Source: Halobium salinum
GTDB lineage: Archaea > Halobacteriota > Halobacteria > Halobacteriales > Haloferacaceae
Direction: 5' to 3'
Length of the DNA stretch: 64,000 nucleotides
Assembly (NCBI RefSeq): GCF_026586625.1
Contig: NZ_JAODIW010000009.1
Span: forward strand, 62,001 to 126,000
The translations under genes were made by a program, and so were the position numbers. Numbering within the stretch: the stretch's first letter is position 1; each line of letters opens with the position of its first letter. Shown piece by piece: positions 33,498 through 35,297 of this stretch. The notes under the pieces are model-generated. The model searched no databases and was not told the origin of the DNA. It worked only from the letters and a program-made list of their open reading frames with translations.

Positions 33498-35297
33498 CTA
33501 CTCGTGAAGCCCGCCCACCTCGTCGTAGAACGACGAGGAGAGCGTCGCCGCCATGTCCTGTTCGCGGTCGATGCGGACGTCGACGACGACGGGGTGGTCC
33601 GCGGCCTTCCCGTCCGACAGCGCGTCGCCGAGGGCGTCGGGGTCGTCGACGCGGATGCCCTCCGCGCCGAACCCCTCGGCCACCCTGACGAAGTCGGTGT
33701 CGTGGAACTCGACGCCGGCGATGTCTCCCTCCTCGCCCTGCATCTGACGCACCATCCCGAGGCTGGTGTCGTTGAGCACGACGAACGTCGGCGCGACGCC
33801 GTACTCGACGGCCGTCTCGACGGCGGTCATCGTCATCGCGAACCCGCCGTCGCCGGCGACCGCCAGCACGTCCTTCTCGGTCGCCATCGCGGCGGAGACG
33901 GCGGCAGGGTTCGCCCACCCCATCCCGCCGACGCCGCCGGAACCGAAGTAGGTTCGAACCGCGGGCGTCTGGAGGTAGTTCAGCAGCCAGAAACGGTTGT
34001 TCCCGGAGTCGGCCGTCACCAGGGTGTCCTCGTCGACGACGGCCTCTATCTCCTTCACGGCGCGCTGGGGGAGGATGGGACTCGCGTCCGACTCGCACTC
34101 GGGCGCCGAGAACGACTCCCGGGCCTCGGCGGCGCGTTCGGCGGCCCAGCCGGTCGGCTCCCGTCGACCAGCCGCCGCGAGGTCCGAGAGCGTCTCCGCG
34201 GCGTCGCCGATCAGTCCCACGTCGGCGGGGTACACCCAGCCCGCGTTCCGGGTGTCGATGTCGGCGTGGATAATCGTCTGCTCGTCGGGCCGGATGAACG
34301 AGGGCGACTGCCAGTTCGTGTCCATCGGGTTGAGCCGACAGCCGACCACGAGGAGGGCGTCGGCCTCGCTGACGACCTGATTCGCCCCCTCGTGCCCGAA
34401 CGAGCCGATGACGCCCGCCGCCCGCGCGTCGGTCTCCGGGAACGTCGACTTCCCGAGGTACGAGGTGACGACGGCGGCGTCGTACGCCTCCGCGACGGCG
34501 GCGAGTTCGTCGTAGGCCTGCGCCGCGTGAACTCCGTCGGAGCGCCGCTCCGACGAGCCCCCGCTCGCTGCGTCGCCGGCGGTACTACCGCCGGCTGCAA
34601 GCGGGACCTTCGGTCCCGACCCGCTCGCGTGGACGCCGTTTCCGGCGATTATCACGGGTCGCTCCGCGTTCTCCAGCACCTCGACCGCGGCGGCGACGTC
34701 CTCGGCGGTCGGGCGCGACTGCCAGGTTCGGGTCTGCTCCCGGGCGTCCCAGACGGGCGGCGTCGACTCCTCGGGGAACGCCTCGACGACGGCGTTGCCG
34801 TCGAGGACGACGGCCGTCGGCCCTGGACGCCCGGCGACGGCGTGTTTGAACGCGAGTTGGACCGAGCGCAGGGTCTCGGTGGGCGTGCGCGGGAACCAGT
34901 GTTCCTTCGTCACGCCGTCCAGAACTTTGGGAAGCGAGAGCCCGCCGTAGTCGCCGCGGGCCTGCTGGTACGGCGCCAGCGTCGAGTAGTCCCCGCGTTC
35001 GCTGGCCTCGGTGAGGACGACCATCGGCGAGGAGGCGAGCGAGGCCTCCATCTGGCCGATGAGCCCCAGGCTGCCTATCCAGGGTCCCTGTCCGGAGAGG
35101 ACGCCGGGTTGCCCCGTCAGGCGGCCGTGGACCTCGGCCATCACGCTCGCCTCGCGCTCGTCGCGCGGGCGCACGAGGTCGACCTCGGAGTCGGGCAGGT
35201 GGTCGAACAGCTCGATGACGCGCCCGCCGGGGTAGCCGAAGACGCGCTCGACGCCGAGCTCCTCGAGTGTCTCGACGATGGCTTCGGCGGTGTGCAT
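33498..35297 (-). CDS. TPP-dependent enzyme of the acetolactate synthase group
   Basis: A 599-residue protein with the three POX/ALS domains: N-terminal pyrimidine-binding part with VFGYPGGRVIELFDHL and probable catalytic Glu47 in RPRDEREAS, a central domain, and the C-terminal TPP/Mg motif GDGGFAMTMTAVETA with VLNDTSLGM. It could be an acetolactate synthase-like, benzoylformate decarboxylase-like or related C-C enzyme; no regulatory subunit adjoins it. Residues about 225-258 are an extra Gly/Ser/Ala/Arg segment encoded by three hairpins. Its ATG overlaps the EthD stop codon by one base (TGATG). Confidence 0.85.
   Translation of the reverse strand: MHTAEAIVETLEELGVERVFGYPGGRVIELFDHLPDSEVDLVRPRDEREASVMAEVHGRLTGQPGVLSGQGPWIGSLGLIGQMEASLASSPMVVLTEASERGDYSTLAPYQQARGDYGGLSLPKVLDGVTKEHWFPRTPTETLRSVQLAFKHAVAGRPGPTAVVLDGNAVVEAFPEESTPPVWDAREQTRTWQSRPTAEDVAAAVEVLENAERPVIIAGNGVHASGSGPKVPLAAGGSTAGDAASGGSSERRSDGVHAAQAYDELAAVAEAYDAAVVTSYLGKSTFPETDARAAGVIGSFGHEGANQVVSEADALLVVGCRLNPMDTNWQSPSFIRPDEQTIIHADIDTRNAGWVYPADVGLIGDAAETLSDLAAAGRREPTGWAAERAAEARESFSAPECESDASPILPQRAVKEIEAVVDEDTLVTADSGNNRFWLLNYLQTPAVRTYFGSGGVGGMGWANPAAVSAAMATEKDVLAVAGDGGFAMTMTAVETAVEYGVAPTFVVLNDTSLGMVRQMQGEEGDIAGVEFHDTDFVRVAEGFGAEGIRVDDPDALGDALSDGKAADHPVVVDVRIDREQDMAATLSSSFYDEVGGLHE
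34524..34637 (-). repeat. Palindromic in-frame insert in the TPP-enzyme gene
   Basis: Three hairpins stand in a row: CGTCGGAGCG/CGCTCCGACG (34535-34555, one-base loop), GCCGGCGGTA/TACCGCCGGC (34575-34595, one-base loop) and GGGACC/GGTCCC (34603-34617). On the coding strand they are flanked by imperfect repeats GGCGTCCACGCG and GGAGTTCACGCG (10 of 12), giving GVHA at both protein ends. The length keeps the reading frame. Confidence 0.65.

Follow-up and report, generated by a model that had tools for sequence, protein, structure and literature searches.

The TPP-enzyme gene and its inserted segment

The window, a stretch of 64,000 nucleotides from the genome of Halobium salinum (order Halobacteriales; 4.46 Mb in 14 contigs), contains on its minus strand a gene for a thiamine-pyrophosphate (TPP) enzyme of 599 amino acids (33498-35297) with TPP_enzyme_N, M and C domains (PF02776, PF00205 and PF02775). 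The protein is acetolactate-synthase-like, and its nearest solved structures are those of acetolactate synthases and similar enzymes. PF00205, the M domain, is matched as two stretches, with an interruption near profile position 20, because an inserted segment splits the domain. The net insert (34524-34625, equivalently 34538-34639, minus strand) comprises 102 bp or 34 codons, encodes SGSGPKVPLAAGGSTAGDAASGGSSERRSDGVHA and is absent from orthologues; the frame is open across the insertion.

A direct repeat of 14 bp, with 12 of 14 positions identical and a spacing of 102 bp, flanks the insert. The gene-proximal copy, ACGGCGTCCACGCG (34626-34639, minus strand), is native sequence and partly serves as the left arm of the outer stem P1, and the distal copy is ACGGAGTTCACGCG (34524-34537, minus strand). 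Both mismatches between the copies are synonymous (GGC/GGA and GTC/GTT), and GVHA is encoded twice. Read in the direction of the gene, that is, along the minus strand, the structure includes GAGC (34623-34626), the left half of a GARC/GYGA motif, followed by hairpin P2 (34602-34618; CGGGACC-GAA-GGTCCCG, a 6-7 bp stem with a 3-nt loop) and hairpin P3 (34575-34595; GCCGGCGGTA-G-TACCGCCGGC, a 10 bp stem with a 1-nt loop). The right half of the motif, GCGA (34565-34568), is followed by the right arm of P1 (34557-34564; GCGGGGGC) and by hairpin P4 (34535-34555; CGTCGGAGCG-G-CGCTCCGACG), again with a 10 bp stem and a 1-nt loop. The right arm of P1 pairs with the native left flank, GTCCACGC, at 7 of 8 positions, one of them a G-T wobble. 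The P3 palindrome has a single site in the window and 0 occurrences in 100 window shuffles, and the fold of the insert region is more stable than all 200 dinucleotide shuffles (z = -3.79). The three near-perfect hairpins with flanking imperfect repeats that the initial annotation had marked at 34524-34637 are thus real, with the repeat refined from 12 to 14 bp; they do not form one simple palindrome, however, but correspond to P4, P3 and P2 in a modular architecture whose outer stem P1 varies.

Orthologues, both from plasmid records (22 records covering at least 80% of the query) and from relatives, align to the gene in two pieces and skip query positions 675-763. The prediction that an in-frame Gly/Ser/Ala-rich segment would be missing from related enzymes therefore holds for full-length homologues. 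On most homologues tested the two aligned pieces overlap, usually by 12-14 bases, so that the sequences on both sides of the insert claim the same stretch; such an overlap marks a duplicated stretch and is what a target duplication looks like, as had been proposed from the GVHA on both sides. Orthologous proteins have GVHA once, in the pattern AGNGVHAA-xAYDEL; the protein reads NGVHAAQAYDEL without the insert and NGVHAS...SDGVHAAQAYDEL with it. The added residues would form a hydrophilic loop, rich in Gly, Ser and Ala, that links a beta strand of the central domain to the helix after it. The insertion probably survived because its 102 bp are a multiple of three, free of stops in frame, and add such a loop.

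A family of hairpin-built elements in Halobacteriales

BLAST searches with the insert retrieved more copies, both elsewhere in this genome and in relatives. From 17 copies, the focal one included, we built a covariance model (R1). The focal copy, itself one of the model sequences, matches it at 34553-34640 (minus strand) with 84.6 bits, and scores across the family reach 91 bits. Unrelated sequence in the GC-rich window scores at most approximately 16 bits (below 17), making scores of 30 and more safe. The common order is a variable outer stem P1, GAGC or GAAC, hairpin P2, the linker TGGMA or TTGCA, hairpin P3, GACGMA, GCGA or GTGA, the other arm of P1 and, often, hairpin P4; many intergenic copies likewise have a hairpin after P1 in the place of P4. 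P2 is commonly GCGGGACC-nnn-GGTCCCGC and P3 is GCCGGC...GCCGGC. The core with its linkers, 60-70 bp, is common to unrelated loci in many genera.

The stems covary. In the 17-copy model 13 pairs have changed on both sides, and the covariation score is 0.225, compared to 0.100 when shuffled and 0.04-0.06 with slid partners. P1 has 5.54 of 8 pairs formed versus 3.98 after permutation (maximum 4.35 in 500), a score that is lowered by some mis-anchored copies (e.g., L205 and one match in L063). The arms of P1 pair yet differ by locus, with 68 distinct left arms among 97 parsed copies. The halves of the motif also change together, as GAGC-GCGA or GAAC-GTGA (Fisher p = 3e-7), this value and the other pairing statistics being computed across copies without correction for relatedness.

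At E<=0.1, model searches gave 24 matches in the H. salinum genome, and 11 of these reach E<=3.1e-8, which disposes of the possibility that no second genomic copy exists. Among the sampled Halobacteriales genomes, one per species, 193 of 293 have matches (E<=1e-3). Some genomes have no copy and others at least 15-18, and the matches often run up to the limit of 15 candidates scored. Hosts include Halorubrum sodomense, Halomarina rubra, Halorientalis regularis, Halolamina pelagica, Halobellus rarus, and Natronorubrum thiooxidans. No match was seen outside Halobacteriales in a phylum-wide sample, in which all 30 positive genomes (E<=1e-6) belong to the order. Around the core, at 20-120 bp from it, several genomes of a single copy-rich genus have a larger intergenic repeat that recurs between loci (CTGGGGAGGYGTGAGG ... 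GCGGGACTCRAAGGGGCAG; L051, L064, L067, L073, L111, L125, and others). A neighbouring structure at L041 (1817-1900) has the same TGGCA and GACA linkers and entirely different P2 and P3 stem sequences, suggesting that there are more subfamilies.

For two of the genes with copies, those for biotin-protein ligase (BirA) and endonuclease V, related species carry the outer insertion but lack the P2-P3 core, which makes the element modular. In one species BirA carries GTGACCAGA-GCGAACGAG; the sister species shares this stem-loop, with its two parts separated by 54 bp of P2-linker-P3; in another genus (L246) a plain GAGC-GAA-GCGA hairpin without the core occupies that site. The BirA loop would so be either a target hit more than once or the site of an old insertion. 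In the case of endonuclease V, the outer insertion lacks the core in two species and is 51 bp longer, with the core, in a third. From these comparisons the P2-P3 core appears to come and go, with sharp borders, inside an earlier insertion, gain and loss being indistinguishable here. Plain P1-GARC-nnn-GYGA-P1' hairpins number 75 in 1.05 Mb of loci, a biased and partly overlapping sample around copies, and 0 in mononucleotide-shuffled sequence. Such hairpins, with a GARC-nnn-GYGA apex and at least 6 paired flanking bases, are frequent in haloarchaeal DNA close to copies and resemble the element without its core; examples beside L042 and L124 sit just downstream of the model match.

Copies in protein genes and at tRNA ends

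Most copies are intergenic. A codon-composition screen identified in-frame copies in five genes, encoding the TPP enzyme, an aldo/keto reductase, BirA, the anthranilate synthase TrpE, and endonuclease V. Empty orthologues exist for all five, and the reading frame is kept in each. For the aldo/keto reductase, eight congeners without the insert have FLERDGERTMG or similar, compared to FLEREGVPASRAGPEVPLETGGSAAGDEASGRQGTTDGSDRERTMG with it; four congeners lack the insert in BirA. Without the insert TrpE reads VATVGPASGVEVFDD and endonuclease V reads STPIEAGPDVEAPEG. All five copies are in sense orientation (p = 0.03 by simple counting), making an orientation bias suggestive only. One frame (G/E-P-x-V-P-L) is used by 4 of the 5, and endonuclease V uses another. 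About 3% of the collected copies lie in genes, although the genomes are mostly coding, as would be expected if coding insertions are strongly purged. We rejected the antisense ORFs of L065 and L205 as spurious frames. A small zinc-ribbon gene carries an antisense copy, in the same position across several genera (L057, L126, L166, and L220); it is not among the coding copies counted here, since in at least one case the element contains a stop codon.

The sites of the copies are strongly skewed towards tRNA genes: 39 of 152 distinct copies (26%) lie within 300 bp of one, compared to 2 of 296 control windows placed 0.7-1.3 kb away. By strand comparison, these copies are mostly at the tRNA 3' end, and the direct repeat beside them corresponds to the final 12-15 bp of the tRNA gene, as in CGTCCTGACGGAG (tRNA-Arg), GCACCGGCCGAGA (tRNA-Gly), and GATGGACTCGCGGGG (tRNA-Ala). 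Several of these are orthologous loci, so the independent events at tRNA ends are fewer, perhaps six; similar placement beside tRNA-Arg is found in several genera. Over all copies, flanking direct repeats scoring at least 12 occur in 23%, versus 3% of permuted flanks. The repeat is clear in the focal gene, at the tRNA-side copies and in the degenerate TrpE copy (L255, with an exact 10 bp direct repeat, GCGACCGTGG). BirA has a weaker repeat and the aldo/keto reductase one of only about 7 bp, while that of endonuclease V is not clear. The tRNA copies also have an inverted copy of the repeat just after P1, with a score of at least 8 in 19% versus 4% of permuted sequences. At several loci, judged from the flanks of the model matches (L058, L103, L108, L124, L127, L130, L146, L209, and L211), the tRNA 3'-end repeat is present as T, as an inverted T' after P1, and again as T in the tRNA itself.

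Origin of the element and comparison with known systems

Given the empty orthologues, the duplicated target and the dispersed copies, some of them in frame in unrelated genes, we consider it very probable that the insert represents a haloarchaeal mobile element, non-autonomous and built of hairpins, that entered the TPP-enzyme gene with a target duplication of approximately 12-14 bp and was tolerated there. The initial idea of a small, frame-keeping mobile palindromic element has therefore gained support. No transposase or integrase recurs within 1.5 kb of the copies, where only conserved host loci recur (e.g., a gene beside tRNA-Arg), and we found no terminal inverted repeat of a known IS; mobility is consequently inferred from the distribution and the empty sites and not from a recent strain-specific jump. 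The element would be moved in trans, with a recombinase or transposase of the host or of an IS recognising a folded single strand or a cruciform. The normal targets would be intergenic and tRNA-3'-end sites, with coding insertions surviving only when in frame, and the peptide probably has no role beyond being tolerated.

That the outer stem forms anew with every insertion, as a copy of the target (T, T' inside the element, and a second T), is a speculative extension that we regard as rather unlikely. It would imply fold-back, target-templated insertion of a folded single-stranded intermediate with a preference for tRNA 3' ends. T, T', and T occur at one site at tRNA-Ala (L058), tRNA-Gly (L108 and L124), and tRNA-Arg (L103), and imperfectly in the focal gene. 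To our knowledge, no such transposition pathway has been described.

Compensatory stem changes, and the position of 26% of the copies beside tRNA genes, mostly at the 3' end and alike beside tRNA-Arg in several genera, would also be expected of a structured non-coding RNA or a processing signal such as a tRNA trailer element, with copies under selection and the coding copy an accident of spread. We nevertheless think this improbable. The covariation also fits a folded DNA substrate, the copies are at unrelated places, both intergenic and in five unrelated genes, and some genomes have none while others have at least 15-18. Moreover, no Rfam family matches the element: at ten loci, with gathering scores, only tRNA was above threshold and nothing credible fell on the element itself. 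Still less probable is that nothing moves at all, the hairpins being made by local template switching on quasi-palindromic DNA and the likeness between loci being GC-rich convergence. This would account for a P1 that differs at almost every locus, sometimes with the local target as one arm and an inverted copy of it as the other, and for the inverted target repeat after P1 at tRNA copies (19% versus 4%); perfect hairpins in spite of two changes in the 14-bp repeat likewise hint that one arm has corrected the other. However, local events cannot create a core of 60-70 bp with linkers that is common to unrelated loci in many genera and scores up to 91 bits against a background below 17. Template switching is thus largely refuted for the core, and it may renew the outer arms. 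Haloarchaeal proteins often have acidic, Gly/Ser-rich loop extensions, and in several orthologues of BirA the insertion site holds a longer, unrelated loop, but the idea that a low-complexity Gly/Ser/Ala loop of the enzyme has simply expanded is refuted by the duplicated target around the insert and by the matches of its DNA to intergenic copies and to other genes, one of them in another frame.

In behaviour, its closest known counterparts are the Rickettsia palindromic elements (RPEs), repeats of about 100-150 bp that are both intergenic and in frame in unrelated protein genes, where the peptide is tolerated (PMC10969869). Here, too, a palindromic repeat lies in frame in several unrelated genes (five) and is absent from orthologues. 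Unlike RPEs, the element is archaeal, GC-rich and modular, with several hairpins, covarying stems and a strong link to tRNA 3' ends, and approximately 3% of the collected copies are coding, compared to nearly half of the RPEs in R. conorii. The comparison made in the initial annotation thus stands as an analogy in behaviour and does not extend to membership in that family, homology being unlikely given the domain of life and the base composition.

REP and REPIN sequences of bacteria are short imperfect hairpins of high copy number, intergenic and moved in trans by Y1 transposases; the haloarchaeal element, by contrast, is a multi-hairpin junction and not one hairpin, with no GTAG/CGTC-type tag or RAYT gene shown. 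Casposon target duplications are about 14-15 bp. Casposons insert at tRNA 3' ends and are flanked by short duplications of the target (PMC4046053), a likeness to our element without other support: the repeat here lies inside the tRNA end, while casposon targets overlap the four to seven 3'-distal bases, and we saw neither casposon-type terminal inverted repeats nor a Cas1 or PolB gene recurring near copies. Casposon-like integration, suggested by the tRNA and duplication evidence, is only an idea.

Among haloarchaeal repeats, the PATEs (palindrome-associated transposable elements) of Haloquadratum have near-terminal palindromes related to IS605-type ends, its SMRs (small mobile repeats) have prominent terminal inverted repeats, and neither duplicates its target (PMC3119063). 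The element resembles PATEs in being transposase-free, palindrome-bearing, multi-copy, and haloarchaeal; it differs in its direct repeats of 10-15 bp (14 bp in the focal gene, 12-15 bp at tRNA copies) and in that no TnpA or TnpB recurs within 1.5 kb, and we rejected a PATE assignment on account of the duplication. An IS200/605 omega-RNA was likewise discarded, as no TnpB recurs near copies. Similar in small size are SMR-A elements (about 110 bp), which enter palindromes of other elements (compare the nested P2-P3 core here). Their assignment was also rejected: the core here is 51-54 bp, the whole element has direct repeats, and instead of constant terminal inverted repeats there are 68 distinct left arms in 97 copies. 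As for MITEs, no autonomous partner was seen within 1.5 kb of the copies.

We found no description of this family in the open-access literature searched. In-frame palindromic elements are best known from Rickettsia, and the family described here would resemble RPEs as "selfish DNA in proteins", in Archaea: an order-wide case with empty sites in several genes. The general proposition that mobile hairpins are a source of new protein loops thereby becomes testable. Stem changes that preserve pairing, tRNA 3'-end targets, and a core that is gained or lost within another insertion make up an unusual signature pointing to a putative haloarchaeal mobilisation enzyme.

The best candidates for recent moves are three nearly identical copies in one genome (L147, L148, and L149), which have approximately 70 bp of upstream sequence in common and unrelated outer flanks. 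All three also carry a longer palindrome, TTTTGGCC...AAAAGG.
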